NCBI GenBank assembly: GCA_905160935.1 | Contig: CAJHZI010000192.1 | Coordinates: 493,001 to 557,000, forward strand | DNA from: Enchytraeus crypticus | Taxonomy: Eukaryota; Annelida; Clitellata; Enchytraeida; Enchytraeidae | Length of the DNA: 64,000 nucleotides | Direction of reading: 5' to 3' | Shown here: in pieces, positions 1,178 through 31,311 of the stretch | Position numbering within the stretch: position 1 is the stretch's first letter | How the letters are laid out: every line of letters starts with the position of its first letter | The notes under the pieces: model-generated | Seen by the model: only the letters and a program-made list of their open reading frames with translations | The model's database searches: none | Told to the model about the DNA's origin: nothing | Program-made: the position numbers and the translations under genes

Positions 1178-1367
1178 CTGTCTCTGACGTAGGAGATATG
1201 GAGACGTTTGACGATCCACTCGACTCGCTGTATGTTCTCCGGTAACTCGACCACGATTCCTCCTCTCGCTGTTTCTCAGCACGCGCAAGCCTTTCCTTCA
1301 GAGCCGCCAACTTCCTCGTCTCCGCTTCCTTCTCACTTAAATACGTCGCGCCCTCTGCGTGCAGGCT
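1178..1367 (-). CDS. MXD: MXD-like exon 5: leucine zipper and Ser-rich segment
   Basis: Read on the minus strand, this 190-nt exon starts after the acceptor CTTGTAG and ends at the donor CAG|GTAAAC. It encodes residues 114-176 plus the first base of codon 177. Joined to exon 4 in phase 0, it continues helix 2 into a zipper with no gap relative to vertebrate MXD1: ILSL at 112-115 falls on IKKL, and LKERL falls on LKRQL. A Glu/Lys-rich coiled coil (KEAETRKLAALKERLARAEK) is followed by YRRTYSESSGSS. That Ser-rich stretch matches in layout the RMDSIGS-type stretch after the zipper in MXD proteins. The family usually ends 40-60 residues later in an acidic tail, which is not seen here. The assignment rests on phase, position and pattern; this exon alone would be called only a coiled coil. 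Confidence 0.85.
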
Positions 1368-1685
1368 CTACAAGCAGATATAAATAAATACATAAGTTTG
1401 TGTTTCGTTCTTTTATAATTAAATAAATAATTTTGCGCGTTCGTGGCACACTGGCGAATGCGGCCTCCCAGAGCGTAGAGTAATTATTTTAAACATTTCC
1501 TTTTCATCTTTCTTTTAATTAAATACAAGTAGTTCTTCCATCTTATTCTTTTAGCCAAGGGCAAAAAAATAAATAAATAGATAATAAACAAGAATGAATC
1601 ACAACTCTTGTATTTCCTGCATAATTCAAAACACAATAGGATCTCTCGATAATTTTCTAAGTAAAAATCTAACGACAGAGCTTAA

Positions 1686-1746
1686 CGTCCAGCAGCGAAA
1701 GTGTACAGACAGAGACCGTCTGGCGGGCTTCGAATCCTGAGCTAGG
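1686..1746 (+). repeat. tRNA-like remnant
   Basis: The B-box-like string GGCTTCGAATCC is followed by TGAGC. It is preceded at the usual distance by a weak A-box-like region. It resembles SINE heads elsewhere in the window but has no recognisable body. A decayed SINE head is the best guess. Confidence 0.3.
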
Positions 1747-2241
1747 AAGTTCTAGAGCAAATAAAAAAATAAACCAATATACGCCCGTAAAAGCGCACAT
1801 AAAGAAAAATACAAAATCGTGTATATAATAGGATAGGAACTAGGAACCTATATATTATAAAGGAAATGCAAAACGATTTCCTCGCTCAATATGAGTATTT
1901 AAAGACCATTCAGAATGTAGGCTATCATGGTTTTTCACACTGACGAGTCAATGATATTGTTAAGGTTAATAATTAGAACCACTACCTGCAGCAAAATTTA
2001 ACAACTTTAAAGTTAAATTTGAACAAAAGTGTTTAGCATAGTTATTTAGAATAATATGTGGGTCCCGTGATATAAACTCTTTACAAGCTCGAAATTTTAA
2101 TTCAAGCTCCTCCCACTGCTGATAGCGTTTTCAGAAGCCGAATGTGATTATTCAATTTTTTCAAAATTCTAGGGATCGCTTTTGCTAGGATCGCTAATTT
2201 AATATTTTTAAATATAACTGTTTATTGTCCTATCCCTACAC

Positions 2242-2760
2242 CACGTGTGAAGATATTCCTTCGAAACATCCTGACGTAATTTTTAATTTTTGAAACAACC
2301 AATTTTCACAATTTTCAACGCCAGATAAGTCTAGACAATAGAGAAACAATTCCTCAATGAAATCCAGAATTAAGAGAAATCAAAACGTTTTCTCTATCAC
2401 GCATAATTAAAATAATAGGCATAAATACAAATAAAGAACTCGGTAGTAATTTAACTCTTTGCTGTGCTCTTATACTTTCGTGGATTCACCGTGAATCGAA
2501 TCACGATGCCCTCTTAACCTGCGGTTGTTTATCTAAAGTGCGCTAAAAGGTGAGTTATATTTACATGTGAGCGGAGGTTCATCTGAAATAATTGAGAAGT
2601 TCTGGCGTCAGTCAGTCAACAGTCGACTTGATCTGACTCAGCCTCCGCAGATAAGAACTTTAAATTCTTCAAAACAGAGCTAAGCTGAACCGCTTAGTTC
2701 TTTCAGAGGATTCAGAAGGTATTTATTTAGCTCAAGCACGTGTAGGTACATGACACGTGC
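2242..2760. promoter_or_regulatory. Cluster of three CACGTG E-boxes, two in an inverted repeat
   Basis: CACGTG occurs at 2242-2247, 2737-2742 and 2754-2759. The last two sit in perfect 8-bp inverted arms, GCACGTGT (2736-2743) and ACACGTGC (2753-2760), separated by 9 bp. CACGTG is the class-B E-box bound by MYC/MAX and MXD/MAX dimers. This lies inside the MXD-like gene. Function is inferred only. Confidence 0.4.
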
Positions 2761-4154
2761 AGAGAACGTAGTACTGTTAATTGAATAAATTATAATAAAT
2801 TAATTAAATTATTCGCGCAAACAGTAATGCTAATAAAGCTTAGAGTTGAGGCTCAATTGAGATGCTTAGGTTACAGGCAACTTGTTAAATTTGAGTTATT
2901 TACTCACGTTTCAAGATAGAGTTTACACAATAAAAATGCAACTGTAATGTTGTATTTGTAATCTAACGTTGGCACAGTACGGCCTCGGCAATTACATCTC
3001 AGACATTTGTCAGACGGTAAGGTCGCCGACATCACTCAATTAATTCTTATCGAACAATATTTCGATTATCGCACTTTTGATATGACATAATAATCAAATT
3101 CGATCAATTATTTACAATTATTGAATATCAATCAATTTTCGCATGCTTCATTGCTTTCTTGAGCAGCAATCAACCACTTTGTACTGTTAACATTTTAATC
3201 AACCCGCGAAAAAATGCAGTTAAAGCCACGTTCTAGATTCTGCACTCTATCGTAGACTCGTTCAGGAAACTATTTCTCAACACTAGCATTTATTAAGCGT
3301 TTGAAACAAATGGCTTAAAGGTAAACAATACACTTTAACTAAATTAAAATCGTCAAATAAACTACGACATAAAAAACCCGTAAATTGAAATAAACGTTCA
3401 GGTATCTAAACCGAATTAAATGCTCGGAATTATTATACAAGCTGAAGGAGGTACTTTACTTCTAAGCAACTTATTCAACTTACGCTAATACGTAAATCTC
3501 TGACAAAAAACAATAAAGTCAAATATATGATATTCGAATGCTGTTATGCTTTGTTTCTTATCTAGTCCCCCCGTGTCGACCATGAATAGGGAGGACACAC
3601 AGAACGCGAAATGGAACTTTTTAAAGCTTTGTTTAAAACTATAAACCAGTCAATGCAGGTTGACATCAGCTGGATGATTAACTACTCTATTATTAATGAA
3701 GCGCACTTGATATCGAGTTGTAGCAGGCTGAATGCAAAGTGTCCATAAATTTAAATTTTCCATACTACAGTAGTTAGTCGGAAAGATGAGGATGATTAAT
3801 ACAGTAGTTACTAGTTAGTATAAATTATACTCAAGATCTAGAACAAAATTGCAAGAACGCCAGCACTTTGCAGAGGATTGCATTATTCAACACATGCTGG
3901 AAGTATTTATGTGCAATTATTTTAGAAAATTTTAACAGGAATTTTATACAGAGTTTCTTTATATCAAACTCTGCAGCCTTTTAGCAGAATCAGCTGATTC
4001 AGTAATTCTTACATTTTGTCTCGATTTACTATAACAAAGTATACAGCACTCTGATAGATAATACACTAATAAAAATTGATAATTGATAAAATAAAGAACA
4101 ATGTTATCGCTATGTAAATTTATATACATTACACGTCACTATTACATGTCACTT

Positions 4155-4273
4155 GACGGCGGGATTAGCGCACTTGATTTAGTTGCGCGTCAATTATCGA
4201 AGTTAAGCTGCATCGACCTCGGTTAGTACTTTGTGGGTAACCACCTTGGAAGACCGAGTGTTGGTAAAAGCTT
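4155..4273 (+). repeat. 5S rRNA-like sequence (head of a 5S-derived SINE)
   Basis: The 3' half matches 5S rRNA well. GAAGTTAAGC at 4199-4208 corresponds to the 5S A box. GGTTAGTACTT follows near 4220, and then CCACCTTGGAAGACCGAGTGTTGG in the C-box region. The 5' half is more diverged. These are the internal promoter elements used by TFIIIA and polymerase III. Several bases differ from any 5S consensus I know, and the sequence runs on into a repeat tail rather than a T-run. It is therefore read as a SINE head or pseudogene, not a working 5S gene. Confidence 0.75.
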
Positions 4274-4438
4274 AGGAAGAAAAAAATCCCAGGGTGATAG
4301 AAGATTATTCTTAATTCCGCGCCGGCTGCAATTGATGCGCCATCAAAAGGCAACGATTACTAATAACCACGGAAAGGAAGGAGAAAATGGGTCTTAAACA
4401 AGCATCTGTACTTCCTGATCCAGTGTGTCGTTATGTTA
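4274..4438 (+). mobile_element. Body and tail of the 5S-headed SINE
   Basis: This continues directly from the 5S-like head. The last part (4344-4438, from AAAGGCAACGATTACTAATA to GTTATGTT) recurs at 11607-11699 with roughly ten to fifteen changes in about 93 bp. In that second place no 5S head precedes it. A shared tail behind a polymerase III-type head is the usual SINE layout. Confidence 0.65.
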
Positions 4439-6262
4439 TGTTATGTATTAAGGTAACAGTTAATATGTGCATAAAAAGCAAAGAAAATAATATAAAAGAA
4501 ACATGACCGTTCATCATATCTCGAGTTATTACTTTTATTGAAATACGATACAATTAACATTATAATACAATAAATCTGTGACCGCTGGCTGGTTCCCAAT
4601 GAAGCGATAAATTCAGATGCATCGCAGAAACTCGCTCTACATTAACTTCTGCGATAAATCTGTTGGCAATCTATTCGCCCCATAAGCAGAATTGAATCGA
4701 TTGGCCGGCATCCAAGAGGTAACAGTAGCCGAGTGATAAATCGAATAAACAATAAAAATGCTAAAAGCGCCCACTTAAATGACATAGCACAAGACGTGTT
4801 CAATTATTGTCATACGTAAAATGTGCAAAAATAATTAGCAATACAATTAATTTGATTTTTTTAACATGACAAAATCGAGCAAATTTAAACTGATGAAAAA
4901 TAGCGATGGCATATTGCACAATTATGCAAGGCCCATTAGGCCTATACAATATATAAACATGAATGTTTAGGTTCAAAGACAATACGCAAGTGAGAAGTTC
5001 TATATTTAGGCAGAGTTGCCAGCATTGGCAGCTTGATTACACATTAAAATTGATCATAGTAAGAATATTTTATTGCTTAACCTGAAGTAAGCGGTAAACC
5101 ACATAAGTAAACTTCAACCATGCAGAGATGAATAATGTGCCTTCTCAAACATCTAGAATTCAGCAACTGCTTTTCTTTGTCTTAAGCACCTCTACTTTAA
5201 CTTCAATTACTTCATGATATTAGCACATTTCAAAGACTCAGTACTGTTGCCAACAGGAGGCAGTGAAAGAAAGAGTGCTTTTACTAGCAATTAAATAACG
5301 GTCCGACTTAATCTCTAAATATAGCCAACACCTAACACAACCGCAATCCTATTGAAATTCCCAATCCTAACACTAGGATATCCCTATATATCAACTTATT
5401 TCTGGTAAAGAAATATTGAGAAACGTAAAATTGTAAATTAAATATTAGAAGAGACCGATGTTTAATGGATCCAGTCAATTTGGCGCATATGGGACCGATA
5501 AGAAGTGTCAGTGCACATGTATAGCACAACTGAACATTTGTCCGTCATATCCATTCCGTAAGAAGATGAAGATGATGGAGATCGTGGTCATATGTTGTGA
5601 ATACTTCAGTCAGAACTATGTAGATGCATAGTGACAGAAACCTCCTGACACTTGACAAATTTCTTCACTTGCAGAAATATTTTCATTCCACACATATCAT
5701 ATTCCATGTGTTTCAGCAACCCGTCAACTAAACTGAACTAGCGTGCACTATCAAGCAAAGTCCAGCCAATCAATTCCACGCCGGTATTAAAATTATCCAT
5801 CTTAAAACAGAACGAATTTAACTCTAATAATATTTAGAAATAAATTTTTGTTTAGATTTTTTAATTATTACATTTTCATCATTTCATATTAGCTTGAATA
5901 GTCATGGATTAAGTGATGAAATAATACATTGATTTAAATGTTAAGTGCACTCCATCATCATCTTTACTCATTTGGAAGTCTTAACCACTTTTTACTTTGA
6001 CGATCACGGTCTTAAAATTCACCACATCAGTAGTGTATGCCGCATCTCTAGTGATACGATTAATTTCATGTAAATCCAATCAATCAATCAATCCAACCAT
6101 CTACGTGCTCAACTTTAATTGATACAAACTTCATTATGAGAATGCTATATAAAAACTCTTATTAAGTCTTTTTTCAATCTGCACATTGTTTATTGCTTTC
6201 TGTTTTGCTATTTGTATATATGTAAGTTTTCTGCGGTATGTCAGATTTCATGTAATAAACGA

Positions 6263-6341
6263 ATATATATATATATATATAATATATATATATATATATG
6301 CCTATATATACAATATATAGGCATATATATAGTCATATAGG

Positions 6342-6380
<39 letters not shown>

Positions 6381-6412
6381 TAATATATCTATATATATAT
6401 ATATATATACAT
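6263..6412. repeat. (TA)n microsatellite block with internal palindromes
   Basis: Long runs of TA are broken by short inserts such as GCCTATATAT and GGCATATATA, which are inverted with respect to each other. The block lies in intron 4 of the MXD-like gene. The open frame across it is made only of Tyr-Ile repeats and is not a gene. Confidence 0.9.
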
Positions 6413-8844
6413 TAATTAAGAGTCCTTTTCGAGGCAATTCTCAGTTTTCTTCTTTGTATTTTTTCCATGCGTTCTCATAAAATTTCTCCGCCTTTTAAAA
6501 CTTTCACATCAAGAGTTTCCAAGTGTGTTATGTGCTATGGAATGGAGATATGGTCATAAATACAACCACACTTCGATTCATCAGTTTCTCTGTTTTGTCT
6601 CATAGGCAAAGGAAAACTATTCAATTAATCACTCACACTGACAGCTAACTTTAGGTACTAGTATTTTTTAGAACATAATTTTCAGCATGAGCATAACACG
6701 CCGAATTAAACCTCTTCAATACTGGAATAAATGTAATAACATACAATATGGTAGCACGATATAAACATCTACTTTATTCCTCTTACCAAAGAAGAGCGAG
6801 AACAAGTTAGAAATTTTAAAAAGAAATCTCTGCCTTGGGACACTATGGGAGAAAAAAGAACACAGCCCATGCGGATGATCATAAAATTCATAGTAAAAAA
6901 TAATCTTGCGTTTAGTATTGCAACAGCAGAAGTCATTTAGCGAACGAAAGATTAATGAGAACTACAGATCATTGGCACTTGCAAAGTTTTACGAAAGTAG
7001 TCGAACCGTTGAAACTCATTGCGGTTTGATAAAGTTCAGTAGTTCCTTATCAGAAAACTTGTTTTATATCTCAAACCAGGCATGACTTGGTTTTGTCGAT
7101 ACGAACGCTTCAAGCGCGATAAGCTTCTATCGGAGAAAGCTGGAATATTAAATAACACGTGGCAATGATCTTTCGTTATAGAATCCATTAATCTAAAACT
7201 TCAGCACAGAAGAACTTGTAAATAAAAACCTACGAATCTACAAATCACAGCAACTGATAAAGGCCTATTATAAGATGGAGTGGAGTATAAGGGTCCCTTC
7301 GAATTTCCTTCTGCTGTTGATCCTAAATAAAAGTTACAGTAAGGGGATGAATTGATCAATCCCAGTCCATTAAAACGTCATATATAATAAGTTAACAATA
7401 TAGTCTTTCCTAGTATACGTGTACTGCGGTTAAGATTTTAGTTACTAAGAGTTTCTGTTAACATTGTGTGGCTTCATAGAGCGGACCCAATACTAATCTA
7501 TTTTTACAGTAAGCTCAATGTAATAAGAACGAATTAGCGTTTTCAAAGCTTAACAATGAATATAGTACAAAACCTTCCTCTTTAATGCGCCGTTATATCC
7601 CATTTTAAAGGTCGAACATCAAAATGTGTACTTTTAACCTAAATTTAATAAAAAGAAAGTTGATGATGCCATACAAACCATACAAACTATACTAGTTACT
7701 CTAGTGCCAAACATAGATATCTTTAATATCCAATTCTGATTATCAAACATACTTACTAAATTTTTATTGTACAACTATGTTAACTATTCATCCATTTCTA
7801 TCCACCTCATTCTGTTTATTCTAAATTTGACGAATACAGTCAGAAAACAAATGCCATATATCACCGTCGAGCTCTGGCAGCAATAGATAGAGAAAAATAC
7901 TTTCGTGCTGTCAGAACTAATGCAAAAATCTACCCATAGCAAAGATTTACAGCGAGGGCCAGGTCGAAGCAGAACTGCTTGTTTACTATAAGAGTCCAAA
8001 AATATCTGTACATAACGCAACAACATAATAGATGCGATTCTTCCAAGAAAAAATTACCTGTAAAACCCGATTTCATTGTAAATTCTTTTTTTCCCGAATA
8101 TAAATATCTTGCAGTATTTTTAAAATCTACCATATTCTGCTAAGGTTTGAAATATAATCAGCACATAGAATAGTTCTGAAACCACTGACCTAAAATATAA
8201 TGTACAAATATTAGAAGAAGAACGTAGAAGCATTCATTATAAACTTCTGGTTTAAATTTTAAAGCAAAAAGGGCTAAAACATATTCAACGTTCATTTCTC
8301 GCCTCAAAAGCCTGTCAGCAAGGGGGCTCACTGTATTTTATCCCAGCACCTACTGATCCACAGCCGGACAACTTGTCAACCTGTCACCGGCTCAAACAAA
8401 CTTAATGATAAAATCTGATAGATTTTAAGATAAAAAGGTAACAGCTGTTGCAGATATCTAATGTCCAACCATCGCTCGAGCGTTCTTGTAGTTTACAATT
8501 CTATTATCATTAATTAATTAAGCGGGACCGCAGTGTGTACAAAGTGATCGTCTGAAACCAAGTGATAGCTTAGGATGCTGCTAATTTTAAAGAAGGTTCC
8601 TTTAAATTTTATCTCATTCCATTCAGCAGTGACCCTCACATGTTAGTCAAGCATTTGACTAATAGCACATTGCGTCATAAGTTAATAAATAAATAATAAT
8701 AGTGAACCTTTATATACCAACAAATGAAGATTTATATTTGGATATGTCAGGGAATCATGGGCAGCAAAGAGCATCTACTGAATAGAAAAGCTTCTACCGA
8801 TTCAGAATTTAATCCACTAAAGGACCCGCGCTAACCAGAACATC

Positions 8845-8960
8845 ATCACCATCATCTTCTTTTAATCCCTGTTTTACTAGGGTCGGGATATGAATAGACC
8901 TTCTCCACTCCTCTGTTGTCTCATAACATATCATCAGTCATCCCATATAAGCTCTTCATA
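8845..8960 (+). mobile_element. SINE-like repeat E, copy 1
   Basis: A CATCATCACC run is followed by TTTTAATCCCTGTTTTACTAGGGTCGGGATATGAATAGACC. The same arrangement (CATCATCAT, AATCCCAGTTTAACCAGGG) appears at 15963-16025 and in reverse at 35735-35835. It is a dispersed repeat with no coding capacity. A SINE body is likely. Confidence 0.5.
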
Positions 8961-9044
8961 TGTTTAATAACATTTTGTAGCAATTTCTGGAGCCTACACG
9001 CTCACCAACCGAATGCCCATTCTGACATGGGTTTAGAACTTAGT

Positions 9045-9125
9045 GATTTAGTCGCCTTCTATGACACGGGCAGTCACCGGTTGGTCTATTCTTCAAGCAG
9101 CCCGGACAAAACCGGAACAAAATGC
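9045..9125 (+). mobile_element. SINE-like repeat F (AGTCGCC..ACGACA domain), copy 1
   Basis: This copy holds TTTAGTCGCCTTCTATGACACG, then TTGGTCTATTCTTCA and AGCCCGGACA. Related strings occur at 13340-13440, 15610-15725, 58365-58475 and 60545-60605. The core resembles a domain widespread in invertebrate SINEs. I cannot name the superfamily with certainty. Confidence 0.5.
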
Positions 9126-9857
9126 ATAAAATTAATTTTCGTCCACAAAACTTTGCAGTGAGAGAAACCGAGACCCGGATGAAGAGAGAATCGATCATGG
9201 ATCAGTAGAATTATCGCCTCGGGCACATGGATAGCATGAAAGTCAATCAACTGCCGAAAACGGAACCCTTTTGCTCCAGTATCCAATCAATTTTATTTTA
9301 GATGGCTGCAAACTGGACGACTAAAATACAATTACTTTCTAAACAATGGATCGAATAATTGTAATTTGATATTTAATAATTCTAAACGAAATAATGATGA
9401 TAGATGACGATGACGATGGTGATGATAGATTCATACAGTGTTTGATGGCAACACATTAACGTCAGGCTATTTTAAAGCTCTAGTCCTATTTAAACTCATA
9501 CTGGAATCGCTACGGGGCCAGAAGTTTATTTTAGTAACTCTGACAAAAGAAGGTTTAAATGATTATTTGCCATTTCCAAAATTACTGTTCGTCTCATTAA
9601 CTACTGAAACTTCACAGTAGGATTAAAAAAATAACTAGCCAGTTTCATTAATAAAAAGAAGTACAGTACTAATAGTGCCGTAAGCTACAAATGTCGAAAG
9701 AGGCGACTAATCCGAAAAGACTATTAAATTAAATTCGACTTTTAAAGTCAAAAAGCAATTCGGCAATTTACTGGCCAGCAAAGTGCTTTACTGCGAAATA
9801 AAGCGGACAACGAGCATGAATTGGACCTGCCATGTGGCTAACAGAACACAGACAGAG

Positions 9858-9943
9858 TGAGAGAGAGAGAGAGAGAGTGAGAGTGTGTGTCTGAGAGAGA
9901 GTAATAGAGTTAAACAGTGAGAGAGAGATAGAGGGTAATAGAG

Positions 9944-9996
<53 letters not shown>

Positions 9997-10022
9997 AGTG
10001 AGAGAAGAGAGAGAGAGAGTGA
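9858..10022. repeat. (GA)n microsatellite
   Basis: Imperfect GA repeats, with a nearly pure core near 9950-9995. The open frame on the minus strand here is Leu-Ser repeats caused by the array. Located in intron 4 of the MXD-like gene. Confidence 0.95.
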
Positions 10023-10811
10023 GTGAGCTGATGCTAGTGCATTATTCACACAAGGCTCGCCCCTATTATCTTCACTATCAATGGCAACACCACTCAAGAA
10101 AACCTCTCCTGGTCACAAAATCTCATCCAAGCAGTTGGATCATTGAAAAATAGTCAATCGTTCACATTTAACTTCCTTATTGAACAAAAAAGTTGCTTTT
10201 AAATCTATTCAAATGTCACAACATTTAACATTTAAAGATTGATATTTAACGTCCGCCTATTTGAGGTCAGTAAACGAAACAATGCCGATAATTTTCCAGA
10301 ATAAACACCACCATTATAAAAATATTTTAAACTAATAGGTAAGTACCTAGCGTTAGTTTGAGAATAATAATACCAAACTTGACTAAATATCATAATCCAT
10401 ATTCTCAAGTAGAAGTATCTCACTGATATAATAATAGACTAAATCTGTGTTGTGTCGAGCTACAGTAGTAGACCAACCGTTTACTTTACCTACAACTAAA
10501 CAATAATTGCAAAAGATATAGAAATGCTACTTCAGAAGCCATTTGTCTCAAGTACAGGCTACATTGAAGTGTAGACAAAAAGTATATTATCATAGGCGTA
10601 TGGATCAACTGATTGGTCTAAAGATCGATCTTGATTAAATGGCATGAAAGAAGATTGATTAAAAATATTACACATAAATCTGCCATTCGACACCTCAGTA
10701 AACAAAACTACAAAAGTAAATACTAAATAAATCTATATATAAATAGCAAAATATTTAAATATTGTATCGCACAAATGAGAGAGATAATTGCAGAGATAAT
10801 TTCTAGATGAA

Positions 10812-10982
10812 CTAATCATCACAGGGGCAGTCACGTGGACTCATCAAGTCACGCTGATTGTCTACAAATGGCCTCCGCTTCCATTTCCCATCTATTTCCA
10901 GTACCTCGCTCCAGAGTCCATTGTCACCGATAACAGTTACTCTCAATCGATTTTTAAAGAACCGCAGAGTGATATCTTTGTG
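10812..10982 (-). CDS. Unassigned coding-like fragment in intron 4
   Basis: An open stretch of 56 codons ends in TAG at 10814-10812. Its composition is richer in GC than its surroundings and its residues look protein-like (for example GLWSEVLEIDGKWKRRPF). I do not recognise it. A strong acceptor-like site (polypyrimidine then CAG) lies about 70 bp upstream, but a stop intervenes in this frame. The plus strand is also open here and reads YLAPESIV after an acceptor-like TTTCCAG, so neither strand is proven. It could be an exon, an old gene fragment or chance. Confidence 0.25.
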   Translation of the reverse strand, partial: HKDITLRFFKNRLRVTVIGDNGLWSEVLEIDGKWKRRPFVDNQRDLMSPRDCPCDD

Positions 10983-11606
10983 TTAGTCTCTTCGGGTTTG
11001 AATGGCTGTTAAAAACTACTGAAGGGGAAAAGAGAAGAAGTATGCATTTAACTTTTGCTGCGAATTTTTTAAATAAAAACTTCAAACATCGGGAATCATC
11101 TTCAGCATTTGCAAAGGTTGACGACGATAAATAAATGAGGAAAAATACTACATATTTAAAATCATAAATGAATTTCTAAAAGTCAATTGTTATCACAATA
11201 TAAGCATCCGTTGTTTAATGTCACAAGTAGGTTGTGGAATGACATATTAATTTCTGTAAGTATAAAATTATTAAACAAGATAGAAAAAAATAAAGGTTCG
11301 TTCATTATCGGTATTCTCTTTTAGTACTTTCTCCGTAAAAATAAAATGTGACTGATGAGATCTTTCAAAACTGAGGTAAGTTCAACATCTGATGTTTAAG
11401 AGTTAAACTGCATCTTAATAATGAATGATACGCTAGATTGTCGCCTAAAAACTTGCAATAAGTCACGATCACTCAAGGTTCACTAAGAAGAGACTGAATG
11501 ATGTCTATCCCACCGCTCTATCCCACCGCTCACAGCCATTGGGTTTCAATCCATGAAATAGTCTTAATCAAATATTCAACAAATTAATCATACACGGATA
11601 AGAATT

Positions 11607-14626: not shown

Positions 14627-14633
14627 TACAGAC

Positions 14634-14748
14634 CAGAATGAGGTTACGAGCACTGATCAACAGACCCTGGGTAGTGTGTCTGGAGGAAGTTCCTTCCAGA
14701 GGAACGACCTTCTTCAACAACTCAAAACAGAGCTTCATGTGAGCTCTC
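14634..14748 (-). CDS. MXD: MXD-like exon 4: helix-loop-helix
   Basis: A 115-nt exon on the minus strand, from the acceptor TTGTTTGCAG to the donor CTG|GTCTGT. Its first base completes Arg75, and codons 76-113 follow. It begins RAHMKLCFELLKKVVPL, then a short loop, then SSRHTTQGLL and SARNLI. Vertebrate MXD1 reads RAHLRLCLEKLK, SSRHTTLSLL and KAKLHI at the same places. This is diagnostic of the MXD family rather than MAX, MYC, MNT or USF. Arg76 supplies the third residue of the His-Glu-Arg set that reads CACGTG. The exon sits between a minisatellite that starts about 20 bp before its acceptor and a CT microsatellite just after its donor. The donor departs from the usual GTRAGT, but it gives the only gap-free join to the zipper exon. 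Confidence 0.95.
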
Positions 14749-14769
14749 CTGCAAACAATGCACAGTCCA

Positions 14770-15455
14770 ATACAATGAGATACAATAAGATGCGATGCAA
14801 TACAATGAGGTACAATACAATGAGATAAAATAGACGATGCGATACAATACGATGAGATACAATACAATGAGATACAATACAATGAGATACAATAGACGAT
14901 GCGATACAATACAATGAGGTACAATAGACGATGCGATACAATACGATGAGATACAATACAATGAGATACAATACAATGAGATACAATAGACGATGCGATA
15001 CAATACAATGAGGTACAATAGACGATGCGATACAATACGATGACGATATACAATACGATGAGATACAATACAATGAGATACAATACAATGAGATACAATA
15101 GACGATGCGATACAATACAATGAGGTACAATAGACGATGCGATACAATACGATGAGATACAATACAATGAGATACAATACAATGAGATACAATAGACGAT
15201 GCGATACAATACAATGAGGTACAATAGACGATGCGATACAATACGATGTAGTATAATACAATGCGACATAGTACGATGTGATACAACACGATGAAATATT
15301 ATGCAGTGCGATACAATAGAAAGCGATTCAATTCAATGCTATACAGTACAATGCGATACAATACAATGCGATACAATGCCATGCGATACAATACGATGCA
15401 ATACAAACAATGCGGTACAATACGATGCGATACAATACAATGCGACGCAATATTA
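14770..15455. repeat. Minisatellite with a higher-order repeat (GATACAATAC family)
   Basis: Short units of 10-11 bp, such as GATACAATACAATGA, are organised into a higher-order block of about 95 bp. The block begins GACGATGCGATACAATAC and repeats nearly perfectly at about 14892, 14987 and 15097. Past 15240 the units degenerate. The array is open in several frames, giving long Tyr/Cys/Ile/Val repeats. On the minus strand one such frame runs into MXD exon 4 by accident. Confidence 0.95.
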
Positions 15456-16796: not shown

Positions 16797-16826
16797 CTGT
16801 TCTTCTCCAGCTCATTATGACTCGTT
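16797..16826 (-). CDS. MXD: MXD-like exon 3: 30-nt micro-exon, basic region
   Basis: The 30 nt lie between a strong acceptor (TTATCTTGTTTCAG) and the donor CAG|GTTTGT. Its first base completes Arg65, nine codons follow (TSHNELEKN), and its last two bases start Arg75. The product, RTSHNELEKNRRAH across the junctions, is the MXD basic region (STHNEMEKNRRAH in vertebrate MXD1). His68 and Glu72 are the base-contact residues for CACGTG, together with Arg76 from exon 4. Phase agrees on both sides (in 2, out 2). Human MXD genes also carry this segment on a roughly 30-nt exon, as I recall. Skipping it would keep the frame but remove DNA binding. Confidence 0.93.
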
Positions 16827-17870: not shown

Positions 17871-17874
<4 letters not shown>

Positions 17875-20818: not shown

Positions 20819-20927
20819 AATTACTTCATCGATTAGCACAAATACAAGTGTTTTTTTCGCACCAGCCAATATAACATCCACAGTCAACCCGCAGGCCGCC
20901 ATGTTGAATTACTTCATCGATTAGCTG
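20819..20927 (+). repeat. Short direct repeat
   Basis: AATTACTTCATCGATTAGC occurs twice, near 20820 and 20905, in otherwise unrelated flanks. Probably the trace of a local duplication. Confidence 0.6.
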
Positions 20928-21321
20928 CAGCAGCGCGGATACATAAACTAATCTTTACAATAGTCGCCTTGAAGTTTATCCAGAGATTTATCTATACTAA
21001 CGATCTAATATCTACACACCAGTTTGGAGGTCGTTTCCGTTTGGAAAGATGGTAACGTTTAGAATAGTTTAGCTAGATGGAAATGTCCGAATGATTTTCG
21101 AAAGATGGTAATGTCTGAAAAGTCGGGTATCAGCGGCAGACCCGACCCGAAACCGACCCGAGACTTCACAAGGCAAGTATGCTACAGGCTTAACAGTATA
21201 TAATATTCTACGGAGTTGTCTAATATAACGAATTTTTTTAAAAAAACATAATAAATCATAGTGTGTTGATGCATCATGACGATGCAAATGACAAAATATA
21301 AATTTGCTGTTCAAGCCCCAG

Positions 21322-21532
21322 CAAGACCTATCACGTGACACTAAAAAAAGAAGATATTCCGGATCAATATTTGCAATGTTACCTTGTCAAACGAGCACGT
21401 CGACGCATACAATTTATACAAGATTTACTATCTCATTTCAGAGTCAAGACAAACATTGCATCACGATTGTTCATGGAGCACAATGTTAGAGAAATGCTAA
21501 CAATAGTATTACACGAAGAACAGAAGTCATAG
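21322..21532 (+). CDS. Unassigned coding-like fragment (possible terminal exon)
   Basis: An open frame follows an acceptor-like AAGCCCCAG and ends in TAG, giving about 69 codons. It is charged and helical in character (YLVKRARRRIQFIQDLL, then FMEHNVREMLTIVLHEEQ). Such composition is unusual for the AT-rich intron around it. I do not recognise the family and see no partner exon. It lies on the strand opposite the MXD-like gene inside intron 2. It could be a nested gene's last exon or a decayed fragment of a mobile element. Confidence 0.35.
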
Positions 21533-21963
21533 CTGTAATTCTATTATCGCTTTGTAGTAATCGATCTGTAACTATATTACATCGCTTAATGCATCCATTA
21601 ATCTTTCATATGATCCTACAGATGAATTTGATAACAACATTTAAAAGTCTACTGTCATTACCATTTATCTCGTCATATATTTGTGTCATAGACATGATTA
21701 CATGTAAGTATTTATTCTAAATAATGAACTTATTAAATAACACTTTAAAGGAAATCATCAGAAAAAATCACATACTCGTATTATTCTATTATATTGTTCT
21801 TAGTCTTATTTATGTTTCACAATTTCTTTTAGCCTTATATTAGTTTTAGTTGACGAGGTCAACTCTTTTTAGTTTTAGTTTAGTCAATGAAAATAACACT
21901 GCTATAAGCTAGATAGGTTTTTGGTCTATCGCTTGATCGATAGGAAATAAAGATAGAGACAAA

Positions 21964-21965
<2 letters not shown>

Positions 21966-22013
<48 letters not shown>

Positions 22014-22030
22014 ATAATAATACTAATAAT
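21966..22030. repeat. (TAA)n microsatellite
   Basis: About 15 AAT/TAA units followed by interrupted ones. Confidence 0.97.
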
Positions 22031-22904
22031 ATGAAAAAATAATAGTAATAAAGGTTTAAAGTTCATAGCCCAAAACAAGGACGATGTCAGGGACGTACCC
22101 AATCATATGTCACTACAAATGGATTCACTCAAAAGATTTTAAAACATGTCCTGAAGAGAAGAAAAGCTAACAAAAAGTATTTATAGATAAGACAAAACAA
22201 GCAAATAAGCAATTCAAAACAAGAATGAAAACTTGTTGGAAATTCCACAACAAAGGAATGTTAATGATCAACAAACAGCTTGCGCTAACGCCACTTCAGT
22301 TAATACATCCACGTTATTATACAAACCAATAAATCTAGTTATAAAAGTAGTGACAAATCTAGTCGAGCAGGCGTAAAAAAAGCTTTAGGCTTTACTAGCA
22401 GGCTAGCGGGCTGAGAGACAAGAGCCCTTGAATTACCAGCCTACTACCGATATTCAACAGAGGCCTAAGCTATACAAAACTCTAGCAAACATTTACACGT
22501 ACAGATCAACAAACCCTGGATATACTTTTATCTACATATATATCTATGTATATACAGCGCAGTCCAGCGCTCGTAATTACTACAGCATATAGATTTGACC
22601 CCACGGCTATACGTAGTTACTACATTCACTGGTCTGGATTGTGACTATATCAGAAGAACTTTGATAAATTATAAAATAAATACCCACAAAAAGCCTGATC
22701 GAAGTTCAAGGATTTGTTAAGTACTATTATATAAAATATATAATAAAGATGATCTCTGGAGGTGCGGCACTACAGCAGATGTTAGAGTCCAAAGAGCAAG
22801 AATTTGTAAACTGATTGAAAAAACAGCGAGATAAATAAATAAGGCAAGAGTAAGCGAGAGAGAGAGAGGAGAGACAAGGAATGAGCGAAAGAGATAAATA
22901 AGTA

Positions 22905-23024
22905 AAAAGCTGGTAAAGCCAAGATTAACGTCAGTTTCCTCACTAGAAATCGATGTCAGTGACGGGCGAGCCCAGGATTTGAACCCGCACATACTGAGCC
23001 GCGGTCGAGTATCTTACCGACTTC
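22905..23024 (-). mobile_element. SINE-A copy 2
   Basis: Read on the minus strand it has GAAGTCGGTAAGATACTCGA, the B box GGTTCAAATCC, CCCGTCACTGACATCGATTT, CTAGTGAGGAAACTGACGTT and GCTTTACCAGCTTTT. The first dozen bases of the head are missing and are replaced by an inverted GACTTCGAAGTC junction. GA repeats flank it on both sides. Confidence 0.8.
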
Positions 23025-23039
23025 GAAGTCGGTAAAGAC

Positions 23040-23192
23040 TATGAGAGAAAGAGAGAGAGAGAGCGAGAGAGATAGAGATAAGAGAGAAAGATATAATGCC
23101 CAACAAACATGACTGTCACACACATGACTGTCACACACACACGACTGTCGCACACACGACTGTCGCATCACACACATGACTGTCACACACAT
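23040..23192. repeat. (GA)n followed by CACACATGACTGT tandem repeats
   Basis: A GA microsatellite at 23040-23090. After it come five or six units of a 13-16 bp repeat, ACATGACTGTCACAC and its ACACGACTGTCGC variant. Confidence 0.85.
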
Positions 23193-23544
23193 ATACCGTA
23201 ACAGATTAGCACGTATTTACAGCTACTAAGCAAAAAATGAGGCAGGCAAGGGGAAAGATCATAGAAGCCATATTTTCGCAAGCTAGAGGCATTGGGGTTA
23301 GGAAATCAGCCTTTGCGATGGGATCAAAATAAAAGGTCAACGGGCGCATTCTTAGTATGAAAGAAAAAACTAATCATGAACATGCGCCTTGGACCAGCCG
23401 CTAGACGAATAGAAGAAAGAGCGAGAAAGAAATTCTTTGTAACTAACTTTAGTATCGGCGTTAGTTAAATTAATTATTTTGCAGAAAACTCTAGAGAGGG
23501 ATAGAGAGAAAAAAAAGGAATGAGAGAGATAGAGATAGACTCAC

Positions 23545-23674
23545 CGGTTGGAAGACACGCTTAAGGAGTTGGTTCTTTTCATTTTTCTCCTCCGCTGATG
23601 AGCAGGGAGATCTCGAGATATGGAAAAACTTTTGGACGTCGGTCGAATAGGACAAGCGTAGCCATGGTCAGAAT
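23545..23674 (-). CDS. MXD: MXD-like exon 2: linker with basic patch
   Basis: A 130-nt exon between the acceptor ATTTACAG and the donor CCG|GTGAGT. Two bases complete Asp22, 42 codons follow, and two bases begin Arg65. It opens SDHGYACP, which continues the exon 1 product to ERERDSDHGYA. Vertebrate MXD1 reads EREAEHGYA here, so the hallmark HGYA is intact. A Lys/Arg cluster, RRRKMKR (residues 49-55), follows where vertebrate MXD1 has its own basic stretch, and may be a nuclear localisation signal. Then comes a Ser/Thr-rich linker that leads into the basic region. Phase (in 1, out 2) matches both neighbours. The exon is less conserved than its neighbours, as in the family. Confidence 0.92.
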
Positions 23675-24799
23675 CTGTAAATTAAGACACAGCATGAATT
23701 AGACGAATTGAACTTCAGTAATTCATGCATATAATCTAAGTATACACTGTATACAACAGTAACTACATAACTAAACTACACTATAGTCGACATATTTAGA
23801 CGAGTATTACTTTACAAAGAGTACTATGTATAATTGTAAATGTATATTACCATTTATAGACGAGCATCGTATTCGTATTCAGTTTACTTTTTATTTGTAT
23901 TCGCTGCTTTTTACATAGTCTATTGCTTTTATTAATAGCAACACGGGTACACATTAATGCTGTCACGACCTTTATAACCGATCACACATATGGTTGATCT
24001 TTCAGTTGCATGCACAAATAAATTGTTAAGACTTATATAGGATATGATAAATAAATATATTAATTAATGACAAAGAACCTCGTATTAACAAGTATTCATT
24101 TGTAGTCATTGTACTGTAGTCATTTCACCCTTTAGTATTAATCATTTGTCTCATCAATAGGCATAACGAATTAATCAATGCCGTAAAATATTATTCGCTG
24201 TATTTAGCTTCCCACGGCAAGCTGCATACTTTGAAAAGGTTTTATTTTTACGTTAGACACGGTTAAATGTGTCCAGTACTGTAACCGAATACGTCCGTTC
24301 CAAATCACTCGGTGATTTATTTTCTATTATTGGCTCTGTTTTCAATTACACTCTGTAAATTGCAGCGATAACTTACAAATGATTACATTGCGATAAAAAT
24401 TTCGTCCAATTCTAATGCTTAGATCAGCTTCACCATTCACCAAGTTAAATAAAATACTGGCATATATTCTTGAGAGAAAAAAGTGTCAAGCACTAAACTC
24501 TTTAGCTTAGCAATGCTGAGCCAAAAATGTTCAATTCAAATAACTGACCAGTAACATCAAGCTCAGTGGAGAAAGATCACAAACGGTTGACCTTACAAAC
24601 TATTATTAGTCTTGTACGTTTAAAATATAAAGCTCTCAGCATAAATACCTCGTGAAACATTTAAACAATTTTCCCGCTTCAACCAGAACGCATTAGAAAT
24701 CTGCAGAAGTTTGCGGACGTTTCAACAAGTGCCGCCGAATGATTGATGGCTGATATTATACCATCGACGTGAGCACCACAAAAGAGCTTTGCGTTCAAC

Positions 24800-24880
24800 A
24801 CCCAACCCCTCCCCCCCCCGCCCCACCCCACACACAAAAACACAAACACACACCCATACATATACACACACCTATATTGT
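24800..24880. repeat. C-rich and CA-rich tract
   Basis: CCCAACCCCTCCCCCCCCCG leading into CACACA and ACACATA repeats. Low complexity. Confidence 0.9.
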
Positions 24881-25027
24881 TTCAACATTGGCTGATTGTT
24901 GGTAAAGGAAAGGGTGCAAATTAGTGAGGTTAAAATTACTGAAGTTTAAATTACTGGATGTTGGACCCTATTACAAAATTACGGCCATCTATCATTAAAC
25001 ATTACGTAAAATAGATACAAATGAAAC

Positions 25028-25133
25028 GAAATGGAACGCTTGGGGAACGCAATGGAACGCAATGGAACGCTTGGAGAACGCAATGGAATGCAATGGAACG
25101 CTTGGGGAACGCAATGGAACGCTTGGGGAACGC
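25028..25133 (+). repeat. 21-bp minisatellite
   Basis: About five partial or full units of AATGGAACGCTTGGGGAACGC. Open on the plus strand only because the period is a multiple of three. Confidence 0.9.
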
Positions 25134-25443
25134 ACAAGCATTGATTCTCAGCAAGGAGTTATTCTTAAAGGCAGTTTGGTTTTGAGATACAATATCTACT
25201 ATGCTTCGAGCAATTTTCCCATAAATCCATACAAAAAATATCCTAGCAAAATTTTAAGAACTTTGGGGTATGTTTCCATTTTGCTCCTGCCAGATAGAAT
25301 ACCATTTAACATATAACGATTTTTGACTTTTTCACTAGCTGGTTTTCGAAACTGCTCTATTCGCAAGATTATTTCTCAAGACTACATTTTCTATTCATCT
25401 ATGAGCTGCCTGTCAGCGGAGGCATAAAGAACACTATTATCTA

Positions 25444-25638
25444 GTGCTAATAATCAGAGAGAACCAATGGCTCAAACAGAAAGTAGGTCGATATCTCAAC
25501 GGCACTGCTGCCTCTCAATTATGCGCAGCAATAAAAGTAACAGGTGATTGGGCTGACGAAATCGTTTCGGTTACAATAGTAGTAGTGAATGCGGAAACAA
25601 CTGAATTTAACGGTCTTTTTGCTAAGCCATTGCTCTAA
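25444..25638 (+). other. Open stretch, unassigned
   Basis: Up to 64 codons are open, with mixed residues (NQWLKQKVGRYLNGTAASQL) and balanced composition for the region. No family, splice site or start could be argued. Chance or an old fragment. Confidence 0.2.
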
Positions 25639-25897
25639 TTTGCATTTAACATTACTAAATTGCTTAATATAAGAAATTAAAATTCTTTTGGTAAAGCAAT
25701 TATAAAGATAAAGTCACTAAAGGTAACAAAAACCTACAAAAACGAACAATAAAAATTCTATGAATGCATGATGAATAAACCTATATTACTGAAAAAAATG
25801 TCTTAAGAATGTATACGTACATAAAAACTAAATACACACGCAGGTTAGATGAAAGCTGCTGGCTGGTACAAATTAAATTTATGACATAATGTTTCAC

Positions 25898-25901
<4 letters not shown>

Positions 25902-25971
<70 letters not shown>
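25902..25971. repeat. (TA)n microsatellite
   Basis: About 35 TA units. Confidence 0.98.
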
Positions 25972-25972
<1 letters not shown>

Positions 25973-27639
25973 TGCCTAACATTTTCTATATTTCTCGCAT
26001 ATACAGTATATATTCGATTTTGACAGATCGTTTAGTAACCACAACAGATTTGTAATATTTCCAAACAGGATATAGATCATGTTCTCTACAAACAATTTAC
26101 TAAATATATTCGACGAGGCAAAAAGTATATCTTACTCCATCTTACATGCAATAATTTAAAAGAATTCAGTTGTTTAAACTCCCGGGAAAGTATTCTATAC
26201 AATGTCATGTACATGTACAATATGTTTATCGCTTTGTCAATAGAAAGAAAATTTATTAATAGATTTTTCAAATGAACTAGACCTTTAATTATTAGAACTC
26301 CCGCAAGATTCTGGTATTTAAAAGCATTAACTAGCAGACATACCATTGTCCTCAAGCGTCAGTATCGCACCTGCTTCACCTAAGTTTTGTTTAAAGTGTA
26401 TTTATAGCCTGCAGTACTATAAGTACCGTTAGATAGCATTAAAATATTTAATTATAACCACATACTAAAGCTTTAAAAAGGATCGAATAAAGGTTTCAAA
26501 CGTTCAAAAATGTATAAAACTAAAATGTATAAAACTATATAAAAATGTTAAAATAAAATAAAAAAGGTATAAAATGATCATATAATTAAATAGCTTCTAA
26601 CAATAAAGAGCCTTAACTAGATTCAACATCAAAAGATTATGTCCTGGCCTTCCTTCAACTTGGTCTATCAGTATTTTAGCGATTCAGAGAAAAGTACTGT
26701 TCAAACATTTTAAATAAAGTGTTTAAAGTATATTTACTTATTCTATAAATCGCTAATATACTGAGAGACAAAATTCAAGTATATCAGCGATATAATCTTG
26801 GGATGTGGAAACGAATTATAACGCTTTATTGCGAGAAACAACTTCATCCCTTCATGGTACGGGATATAAGGGGTTAATTAATATTTTCAAACAAGCGCTA
26901 TACCTTTTATAATAACACTTTTATATGTATTATAATACTAACTAATATAATATGTAAGTTACTATTGAAGATTCAAAGTAACACAAGTAGCATGGTAAAA
27001 AGACTTGAAGTAAAAATAATAAACACAGCTTTTTTATTAAATGAATTGAAAATCAAATTGAATAAATGTAAATATGTTATCAACTACGTCACGACTCACT
27101 ACTCGTTAGTATATACAAATTTAAAGATAAAGTATAGTCTTAAGATTTACAGTAAACACACAAGACACTTAAAAACAAAAAATCGAATCGTACATGTAAG
27201 TATAACTGATATTCAAAAATGACTAAAGTTAAGCCAAATCTCATCAGTTATATCACATAAAACACTAGATTAACAAATTTAGATATGAATAGCGTCACAT
27301 TTTAATAAAAAATTCACCACATGTCAATACAAATGTTCTAGAATTTGTTTCGACAAAAATTTCCTACAAATATCGACAACTGAGTGCCTTTATAAGCGTT
27401 ACTAATTCTAAGAAATTACCAAGGATTAATAGCAACAAAACGGCATTGTAAAGTTTTTCCCATGCGATACGGCAGATATATCACATTCTCTTGCACAATG
27501 GCGTAACCTAAACCCATATGTTACGGGGAATCCGATGAAGGAAATTGATGAGATAAGACGCTACATTTGACACTTATTCGATAATATGCAGAGCAAAGTA
27601 AACAAGGTAAATTGATACTCGCAGTGGGTCTAACAATGC

Positions 27640-27705
27640 GTCCTGTACTAGAGAGTTTCCCATTAGCTCACAGGCTGCAGGTTCGACTCCCTGGGCAGCG
27701 TGTGA
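27640..27705 (+). repeat. tRNA-like sequence (SINE head)
   Basis: A perfect B box, GGTTCGACTCC (about 27680), follows an A-box-like region (TAGAGAGTTTCCC..TAGCTC). No stable acceptor stem is apparent, so a SINE head or tRNA relic is preferred over a tRNA gene. Confidence 0.45.
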
Positions 27706-27969
27706 GTGTCATTAATCATCAGAAGTACCGAAAATACGTCACAGCAGTTTCTACTTAGCACCGCTATCACTCGAGGAGGTTTTATATAATTACAGTGGAG
27801 CCAGTGACTATAGGCGAAAAGTCTGATGAAAAAAGTAGACATATGTTCACTCATATGAGAACATGGTTAGAGAGGTTCTCATTAGCGACAGAAATTTAAT
27901 TTAAACAATTGTAAGAAAATACGAAAACATCAATTTTCATTACATATATACACTAGCATATGTGGAAAT

Positions 27970-28070
27970 TAAGAGGAAGGCGGAAGACAGAGCAGAGTGG
28001 AGGCGTTATATACCATGGACCTGCCACTAGGCAGTTCACTAAGAGAGATATACACTAGCTGCATTTTAGA
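27970..28070 (+). mobile_element. Non-LTR retrotransposon 3' end, copy 1
   Basis: One frame reads KAEDRAEWRRYIPWTC before a stop. The nucleotide core ACCATGGACCTGCCACTAGG then GCAGTTCACTAAGAGAG recurs at 35325-35365, 44255-44310, 50755-50800, 52860-52900 and 58110-58145. This is the C-terminal end and tail of an invertebrate LINE family. Only the last hundred bases are present. Confidence 0.6.
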
Positions 28071-28154
28071 TTATTGGAAAGTCTAAATTAACCAACTTAA
28101 AGAGGTAAACAGAGAAAAAGTTGCAACATTTCGATTTCTCAATGAAAATTTCAA

Positions 28155-28216
28155 AAAAGCTAAAGCTAATGTTAACGTCAGTTTCCTCACACAAAAGCGA
28201 TGTAAGTGACGGGCGA
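28155..28216 (-). mobile_element. SINE-A copy 3 (3' half only)
   Basis: On the minus strand: CGCCCGTCACTTACATCGCT, then GTGAGGAAACTGACGTTAAC and AGCTTTAGCTTTT. The head with the promoter boxes is missing. Confidence 0.75.
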
Positions 28217-28282
28217 AAATTTTATTTATTTTCACTGAAAGTAAATAACAGACGCTCCAAATGAAGTAGCTATATACAGTAG

Positions 28283-28441
28283 GTTGGTATAACAACCAAG
28301 TATGAAGATAGCAATGAAGATCAGGCTATTTGTGGTCCATCGACACGCAATCTTCACGGTGGGAGCCTCTCTAATGAAGACCCCACCCCTCGTACTCCAG
28401 TGTTTGCCAAAAATAGGATCACCCCGTGGACAGGCAACTGA
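28283..28441 (+). other. Coding-like stretch, unassigned
   Basis: Fifty-two codons and a stop after an acceptor-like ACAGTAG. The residues are mixed and non-repetitive (YEDSNEDQAICGPSTRNLHG). The opposite strand is open too. It lies beside a SINE-A fragment and a LINE tail, so part of an unrecognised element is as likely as an exon. Confidence 0.25.
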
Positions 28442-31168
28442 ACTCAAAATCTCAAACGATACAACGCTTCAATCGATCATTGTTATATACCGTGACGTGT
28501 TATCAAAGAAACTGAACTAAGATTTCAGGTTCTTTTTCTCTGACAATCGTAACACTAGGCCAAGTAAATAAAAGAAAATAAATTTTGAGATTAATTTAAA
28601 GTATATTTCCTTACCATCATCAAAAGTAAATATATTCAGTAAAGCAGAAAGTTAAATCCGGCTTAAGCCAGATTTTAACCATAAGACTAGTTACAGTAGT
28701 AATCCAGAAACAGTGCCAAGCCCAGAATTAGTTTTAAAAAATCGTTACAATTTTAAAGTTTGCTTTAATTGATATCGAAGTAAACAATGCTATTTACCAT
28801 AACTTCAGCAAACGTATTCAACATCCAGTAGCCTTTTACATTTATAAAATTCGATTGTCAACTGAACACAAGAGGATTTGAATAAAAATACCTCATGATT
28901 TCGTAAACAATTTCGACTTAATTTTGTCAGCAAACAGTTGGCAGTTTTAAAAGTCTGTAGACGGTAAGGATAACTCTTGAAGCTTTTTAAAGGTAATAAC
29001 AAAGAGATGTAATTTGAATGGAAAATCCCGCATTTTTTTAAAAAACTTAATATATACATATTTCAAATCAAGAGATGAGAGAATGTAATAGAGATGGCGG
29101 ATGATTCCATATGTTAATTTAAACAACAGAATAGAGATGGTAGGTGAAACAATGTTTACATTAAAAGTACATTAGTCACTAAAATTTCGTTGTAAGTACA
29201 GACTGTACACAGTACAGTCAATAGGATAAGAATTACATATGCACCGCAATTCTAAACGAAATGCACTTGATCTAGAAGGAGAGCGATAATAAGCAAGACT
29301 TGAATATTACAATGTACGCCTAGTTAAACAAATAAATACATAAAGATAAGAAGTTTAAATTTATTTTCAGAAATATATCCTGAATCGCATTCTAATTATG
29401 CATTAAGTGGTTTAAAACGTACATAAAAAACGTTCTGAAAACAGAAATCTACTCCTTTCACAGCCTTAATTGAAATTTCTGGTTGCTTATTTACTTAATT
29501 ATCTCGCACATTTTCTTCACGACATTTTACTGCCGGTAATGATAGATCACAGCTATGTAATCGACCTGGAAGAAGTAGTCCATATCAATCTGTGACGTAT
29601 GATGTAATTAAGAGCGGGAGTTCGGCAGCTCGGACTATTCAACTGAAATAATGGTGTCAGTGAATTGGGGGAGGGGGGAGTGGGGGTCCTTCTGAACTCC
29701 CCTGGACATCTGCTAGATGAATTGGAAATCAGAACAACGTAGCATGATGTGCTCGGGGAATTGAAGGCAACACGCAGTGCTATAAATCAGGACTGCTTAG
29801 CGCCACTGAGAGAGGAACAGAGGGATACAAGAAGACAGAATAGACGCACACAGAATAGGTCAGGAAGTAAGTAAGAAAGAGAAAGAGAGCCTGGGTGAGG
29901 AAATAGAGTAAACCAAGTGAAATCCAGTAACATTTAACGAGTGTTTGCTTAGCTTTGAGTCTTGAGAAAAAACCGAGAATCGCTCTAGGGCATATAAATA
30001 AAGGCAAGCCAATGTCTGAGTCATTCAATCCCGCCACAAATATGTTCAAACATTAACACCTTAACAAGCGCTATAGTCACCTCATTTCACGCGATTATTA
30101 CTCTAAAATATTATGATTATCATTCTAAAATAGTGCAAGTTTTCACGCTTACAAAATCCCTTAACTATCGTCTGAACACTCAGTTGCGCACGAAGTTAAG
30201 AAAGAGGAAGAAGGTGGTGGTAAATAATCTAGAGTTATATTTAAAAGCTGTTTTTAAAAGAAAACCTCAACGTCTTGGTAAATCAAGTATTTGTAATAAA
30301 TTAACAAGAACGAATTTGGGTATAGTTGAAACTATTTGACAGAACACTAGACAGAGAATCCTATAAATTATATGCTTTAAAAGAATCAAACTTTGAATTT
30401 AAATTGCACAACACAAATCAATTAAATTAATAATTAACTTAATGAAGGATCAAGATGATGCAAGCATGCAATTTCCGTTTTCATTGCAATCTCTCTCGCT
30501 AGTGTATTGTAAAAAGGCAGGTCCTATGCTTATATTTCTGCTTCACGATTATCAAGAGCAATCCAGTGATCTAAGTGCTAATCTAACCATGCGCAGTACT
30601 AATGCACGTCTAGGTTACCATTTTTAATTAATGAAACTCTTAACTGGAAAATAATTATAAAGTTTCTATACTTATTGTCATGTAAAATGCATACATTATG
30701 AATTTTTTCAATTAAATATAGCAGTTAGGTCCAGAAATTTCTTATCGTTTTACGCATGACTTCCTATTAAAATAGTATATAATACATTATTAGACATGCA
30801 AAGTAAATAAATTACAGGTATACTTTTCTTACAGTTTCATACATGACATAAATCTGTCTCAACATTCAACCTCACAGATCAACTTTAAGCCTGCTTGCGC
30901 AATGATTAAATATCAGAGATTAATATATTACTAGATCAATACAATAATTACTAGATTAATATAATAGTTACTAAATTGTAATAATACCCACTACATTAAT
31001 ATTTACTAGACTAACATTTTACTTTTTAAAGTAATATGTAACTTACAACACTGATATGTTAATTACTAGACTAATATGTGTTTATTTCGCGGAAACAATC
31101 CACATATAGGCTACAAAAAGAAAAGTAGAAAAGAATAACAGGTGAACAATGAACATATCGGCACTTAC

Positions 31169-31232
31169 CTCGTTCTCTTTCTTGCTTATCCAACAAGTTC
31201 GCAGCCAATATTAGCAGATTAATGTGGTTCAT
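31169..31232 (-). CDS. MXD: MXD-like exon 1 (coding part): start codon and SIN3-interaction domain
   Basis: ATG is at 31232-31230. The donor is GAACGAG|GTAAGT. Twenty-one codons and one base are coded. The product MNHINLLILAANLLDKQERE matches the SID of MXD proteins (MNIQMLLEAADYLERRERE in MXD1), keeping the Ala-Ala-x-x-Leu core that docks into the PAH2 domain of SIN3. The start is firm: an in-frame TGA lies 18 nt upstream and position -3 is A. The exon probably begins at 31311, after the acceptor TGTTTTTTTGTAG, leaving 79 nt of 5' UTR. A CTG|GTAAGTGAC string inside that UTR could serve as an alternative donor. A mutated copy of this exon is at 35977-36074. Confidence 0.93.
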
Positions 31233-31311
31233 GTTACAGACTTCAGGTCACACAGACTTCCACAAGGTTTTAGCTTGTCACTTACCAGATTTCAGCTTTC
31301 AACAAAAGGTT
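31233..31311 (-). other. Probable 5' UTR part of the start exon
   Basis: The acceptor-like site CTGTTTTTTTGTAG at 31325-31312 has a long T-run. The stretch down to the ATG contains an in-frame TGA. If an upstream non-coding exon is spliced here, this is leader sequence. Confidence 0.45.

Follow-up and report, generated by a model that had tools for sequence, protein, structure and literature searches.

Does a 64,000-nucleotide (nt) stretch of the Enchytraeus crypticus genome (C110:493001-557000, here called the window; host genome 524,188,772 bases in 802 contigs) carry a repressor gene of the MXD (MAD) family that is split into very short exons, and, if so, how does it relate to the known members of that family? 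Its exon structure, its likeness to a MAD chain of solved structure and the presence of related loci elsewhere indicate that the window very probably holds a functional-looking animal MXD gene, one of at least four in this genome.

Gene model and family assignment

The five minus-strand GT-AG exons of the original prediction (64, 130, 30, 115 and 190 nt) were located (Table 1). They join without a stop into 529 nt encoding 176 residues, with start phases of 0, 1, 2, 2 and 0 and minus-strand introns of 7494, 6718, 2048 and 13266 nt. GT donors are present on all five exons and AG acceptors on exons 2 to 5. The SID, HGYA, basic and helix-loop-helix (HLH) motifs that had been named are all present; HGYA lies at 23666-23655 (minus strand) and HNELEKNRRAH straddles the exon 3/4 junction. 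The outer coordinates, given as 1178..31311, proved correct, although position 31311, the first base after the acceptor-like TTTTTTTGTAG, falls in the possible 5' leader and the coding part starts at 31232.

Pfam recognized an HLH domain in the joined protein (1e-9). Among chains of solved structure (PDB) the best match was the MAD chain 1nlw_A (4.9e-11), compared with 0.0021 for Myc and 0.0087 for the best Max chain. As a chance control, the 1nlw_A stretch was run by tblastn against the window and against 100 dinucleotide shuffles. The top two matches in the window fell, collinear and on a single strand, in exon 4 (40.0 bits) and exon 3 (23.5 bits). No single match in the 100 shuffles exceeded 26.6 bits, against 40.0 for exon 4, and no ordered pair summed to more than 42.8 bits, against 63.5 for exons 3 and 4 together. 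In the bHLH region the window gene is identical to the MAD chain at 28 of 49 residues and to Myc at 15 of 49.

Table 1. Exons of the window gene, the second SID exon copy and the presumed exon 5 counterparts in the paralogues
Feature	Position	Strand	Remarks
Exon 1, coding part	31169..31232	-	start codon and SID, MNHINLLILAANLLDKQERER; 64 nt from ATG; end phase 1; donor GAG/GTAAGT
Possible 5' leader of exon 1 (candidate)	31233..31311	-	acceptor-like TTTTTTTGTAG directly before; from sequence reading
Exon 2	23545..23674	-	DSDHGYACPIRP... and basic cluster; 130 nt; start phase 1; next exon phase 2
Exon 3 (micro-exon)	16797..16826	-	basic region (R)TSHNELEKN(R); 30 nt; start phase 2
Exon 4	14634..14748	-	remaining basic region and helix-loop-helix; 115 nt; start phase 2
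Exon 5	1178..1367	-	presumed zipper and serine-rich stretch SESSGSSNVS; 190 nt; start phase 0
Decayed SID exon copy	35977-36075	-	94/99 alignment columns identical to exon 1; frameshifted
C444 exon 5	43731		best-scoring donor at 190 nt; ALHETEQVQKRTREQLLREQHQLRLHYEQLRK...SESSESS
C462 exon 5	293094		NLRGTEQ...LRRQLERL...SESST
C360 exon 5	near 724 kb		SLREREKHL...LRRRLDRL...SESST

A 15/94/206-bp tandem array at window positions 14768-15442 starts 20 bases from the exon 4 acceptor. It contributes to a spurious minus-strand frame of 299 residues that also covers exon 4.

Paralogues, zipper exon and 3' end

The joined protein gave eight matches in the genome at E up to 1, four of which were its own gene. 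Three others are MXD-like HLH exons on C444 (6.9e-6), C360 (2.5e-5) and C462 (0.0076), all of which start at query residue 75; the remaining match lies on C359 (E 0.107). Regions of 60, 70 and 70 kb were examined on C444, C360 and C462 (containing 5000 N in C444 and 7500 in C462). Each has SID, HGYA, basic and HLH exons in order, with HGYA itself conserved in all three. The paralogue SIDs IDTLIMAAEYLDR, IARLLKAASIIER and VALLLKAASFIER fit the consensus phi-x-x-L-phi-x-phi-A. When the acidic positions were left out of the SID pattern, it matched the sense strand of these regions four times, three times in the right place and once elsewhere.

When the borders in the paralogues are placed manually at GT and AG dinucleotides and lengths are counted from the ATG, exons 1 to 4 measure 58/163/30/115 nt in C444, 76/112/30/115 in C360 and 76/94/30/109 in C462. 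Their start phases (0, 1, 2, 2) are those of the window gene, and the 30-nt exon occurs in four of four genes. The exon 4 border falls at the same codon in all four and is followed by a phase-0 frame. The genome holds at least four MXD-type genes with a common exon plan. It had been predicted that surveys would miss such a gene, and a genome-wide Pfam HLH search indeed returned 73 matches, none of them on C110, C444, C360 or C462.

Over 49 hand-aligned bHLH columns, C110 and C444 are identical at 34 positions and C360 and C462 at 38 (two columns gapped), with 28-31 for the other pairs. Since the sequences fall into two such pairs, the four MXD-type genes probably arose by duplications separate from those that gave vertebrate MXD1-4. 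The earlier description of the window gene as a true MXD orthologue holds for an MXD-type 5' part; a one-to-one relation with MXD1 or MXI1 is unsupported, there being at least four genes of this type.

Across the 14.6 kb that follow exon 4, a filter for exon 5 that required phase 0, an AG, an open frame of 90 nt or more and a donor of at least 7/9 left nine candidates, all nested in exon 5. Of the stretches of equal length sampled from the window, 0.05% reached the GC content of exon 5 (0.553). It starts SLHAEG and contains SESSGSS, and by position, phase and ends, though not by significant score, it belongs to the exon 5 series of the paralogues. The exon 4/5 borders gain support because the paralogues, with borders chosen by hand, can be cut at the same codons.

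The window gene runs past position 1. No obvious C-terminal exon is found in the last 1177 bases of the window, and the filters leave 33 candidates for a terminal exon over the 41.2 kb from that point. The candidate with the highest GC content (0.54) starts at C110:480567, 12.4 kb beyond position 1, and encodes 88 residues ending in TSTDSGCGLSPVSKIALDGL, an ending reminiscent of the vertebrate one. If it is right, the coding sequence would span about 44 kb and specify a protein of some 264 residues. This candidate for the acidic C-terminal exon expected beyond position 1 is 9% acidic and 27% S/T.

Several observations weigh against a functional-looking MXD gene. The exon 4 donor, CTG/GTCTGT, is weak (6/9), and 15% of same-strand GTs score as high; some paralogue donors (GTCTGT, GTTCTC) are also weak. 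Few of the expected zipper leucines can be seen by eye (d positions L, Y, E, L and A in the Mad register), and no significant similarity links exon 5 with an approximate human MXD1 zipper sequence. In tblastn of exon 5 against the paralogue regions none of the matches listed was significant, those with E 0.18 (C462) and 0.90 (C360) falling at the presumed exon 5 of each gene. The exon for the zipper claimed to follow in family order is in the right place and phase, and its two ends resemble those of exon 5 in the paralogues, but it lacks a significant zipper match. The window SID agrees with an approximate human MXD1 SID at 8 of 17 residues, and the last exon is only a candidate, with no significant match in the paralogue regions. 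Other rows of the exon 5 search, for example E 0.023 in C444, are low-complexity chance matches.

It is quite improbable that the window gene is a pseudogene, a decaying MXD duplicate beside three other copies. In favour of that idea, the genome has at least four MXD-type genes, and the window gene has the least regular zipper by eye and a broken extra SID exon; against this, its five exons have GT-AG borders and contain no stop or frameshift, and the composition of exon 5 is unusual and coding-like.

Related families and the SID exon

In blastp with short bHLH segments, the highest scores were those of MXI1 (60.1 bits), MAD (57.0), MXD4 (52.4) and MXD3 (48.5), followed by MNT (43.1), Myc (30.0) and Max (28.9), the MXI1, MXD3, MXD4 and MNT segments being approximate sequences. 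The alignment to MXD1/MXI1-type and MNT/MAX sequences that had been proposed as a check came out on the MXD side, with the MAD, MXI1, MXD3 and MXD4 segments all outscoring MNT and Max.

MNT, the other Sin3-binding Max partner, comes near in the basic region (a 27-residue match with 67% identity to an approximate MNT sequence), but this alignment does not reach the loop, and higher scores go to the MAD chain and to the approximate MXI1, MXD3 and MXD4 segments. We take HGYA after the SID to be an MXD hallmark, and the SSRHTT loop together with HGYA to be MXD-like. In the available excerpt of PMC8465425, MNT is described as having a proline-rich region besides the SID and bHLHLZ; in the joined protein the spacing from SID to bHLH is 43 residues. 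Moreover, a separate HLH exon on C516 is Mnt-like by eye, reading RRADLKGKFVDLKRALPGLNVKRKVSNLTLLHLALTHIK between AG and GT, although its match is non-significant (E 1.17). With an 83-residue MNT query of approximate sequence, the C359 locus was the sole match at E up to 0.01, and a 50-residue MNT query gave seven genome matches, the best at E 0.066. By eye, C359 carries a Myc-like C-terminal frame. It is very unlikely that the window gene is MNT, and the comparisons support reading it as the 5' portion of a gene of MXD type, as opposed to MNT, MAX or MYC.

Potential partners are present in the same genome. A Max query gave six matches (two on C760, two on C519, one at the C359 locus and a weak one on C356) and a PAH (Sin3-type) query four (two on C434 and two on C202). 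The two Sin3-type and two Max-type loci, with four MXD-type genes, may point to a large-scale duplication.

The stretch INLLILAA of the window SID (INLLILAANLLDK) fits phi-x-x-L-phi-x-phi-A, which is the consensus of Sin3 PAH2 binders in the excerpt available of PMC8657803. A strict Mad-type SID pattern, set post hoc from an approximate Mad1 SID, occurs once in the window and in none of the 100 shuffles. A looser pattern, with 16 window matches against a shuffle mean of 13.65, is unspecific and alone proves nothing. Compared with solved chains, the SID peptide alone gave no match.

The decayed copy of the SID exon (Table 1) lies 4.7 kb upstream of exon 1 and also includes 27 nt from the leader and 7 nt from the donor. 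One inserted nucleotide throws the copy out of frame and into an early in-frame stop. Beyond exon 1 and this copy, no further copies of the SID unit were found in the window, and the two were also the only ones found in the 524 Mb of the genome, where counts are lower bounds. The most economical interpretation is that the first exon was duplicated locally and recently and that the duplicate has since decayed. The copy directly adjoins a SINE-like repeat (35840-35975), as it might if the SID exon were a piece of a mobile repeat resembling a SID by chance, but two copies in 524 Mb and the same-phase SID exon ahead of the HGYA exon in three paralogues leave that idea hardly any probability.

That repeat belongs to a SINE-like family with an apparent tRNA-type head, with further copies at 1009-1144, 22906-23025, 37643-37768, 43006-43125 and 62906-63036 and shorter ones at 28161-28216 and 33744-33815. 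The copy at 940-1180 has seven other matches in the window, the longer of which are 85-93% identical to it. An interstitial telomere-like CCCTAA array occupies 39321-39557. A short minus-strand frame at 55522-55701 looks by eye like the end of a LINE reverse transcriptase, without a match in Pfam.

Pfam returned nothing above its cut-off for 13 of 150 filtered window open reading frames and the exon 1 codons, a weak PRONE match among those frames reaching 13.6 bits (cut-off 27), and an Rfam search gave no match. Chitin_bind_4 had no match either, but neither had its control, so that this result excludes nothing; C1q had 10 matches, which were not used. In the Genome_contigs collection, searched with a 49-residue piece, 202 stretches matched a pattern and none was a relative. 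In viral contigs, seven stretches matched a pattern and one locus (L001) was returned; it was rejected as a chance match that contains a stop and runs antisense to a phage-like gene. The SINE and SID DNA patterns found nothing in viral contigs.

Proposed mechanism and relation to known MXD genes

Members of the MXD family partner Max, bind E-boxes, recruit Sin3 through the SID and repress transcription against Myc, as described in the parts available of PMC7358075, PMC8465425 and PMC8870482. We infer that the window gene is transcribed and that its product dimerises, binds DNA and Sin3, and represses in the same manner. The protein would pair with Max through its bHLH-zipper, and the MXD-Max pair would bind E-box DNA in competition with Myc-Max. 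The N-terminal SID helix would dock into the PAH2 domain of Sin3, and Sin3 would bring in histone deacetylases, with the repression of growth genes as the expected outcome.

It is possible, but doubtful, that MXD underwent an expansion of its own to four genes in a non-vertebrate lineage that also has two loci each of Max and Sin3 type, perhaps by whole-genome duplication and in parallel with vertebrate MXD1-4, and that the paralogue in the window, whose SID is altered, whose zipper is weak and whose alternative SID exon has been lost, drifted to another partner choice.

The likeness to MXD1, MXI1, MXD3 and MXD4 (structure 1nlw, Mad with Max) extends to the SID, HGYA, HNELEKNRRAH and the SSRHTT-type loop, all in family order. 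In contrast to the approximate Mad1 SID, that of the window gene has a leucine for the acidic residue before AA, and its zipper is divergent. Like MXI1, for which excerpts of PMC5456372 describe an alternative first exon used by Mxi1-0, the window gene has a second first-exon-like sequence upstream of its SID exon; unlike that of Mxi1-0, this sequence is no different exon but a broken copy of the SID exon.

MXD genes have been reported outside vertebrates (PMC3974684, PMC7693978, PMC8465425 and PMC5064789, each in the part available). C. elegans MDL-1 and Ciona Mad are non-vertebrate MXD proteins, as the window gene product would be, but the excerpts of PMC3974684 and PMC7693978 name one Mad gene in each species, compared with at least four in E. 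crypticus. The COX1 of this genome, whose mitochondrial contig is C802, reads with genetic code 5 and looks annelid-like. The gene type is well known, and the window gene is a genuine additional member of the family.

The window gene also illustrates how easily split animal genes are missed, as a search for the HLH family lists none of the four MXD-type genes. According to the accessible part of one review (PMC8465425), MNT and MXD1 occur along the tree and the other MXD genes are restricted to vertebrates. With four MXD genes in a single, apparently invertebrate genome, that statement would need qualification, and two independent expansions of the MXD family could be compared.

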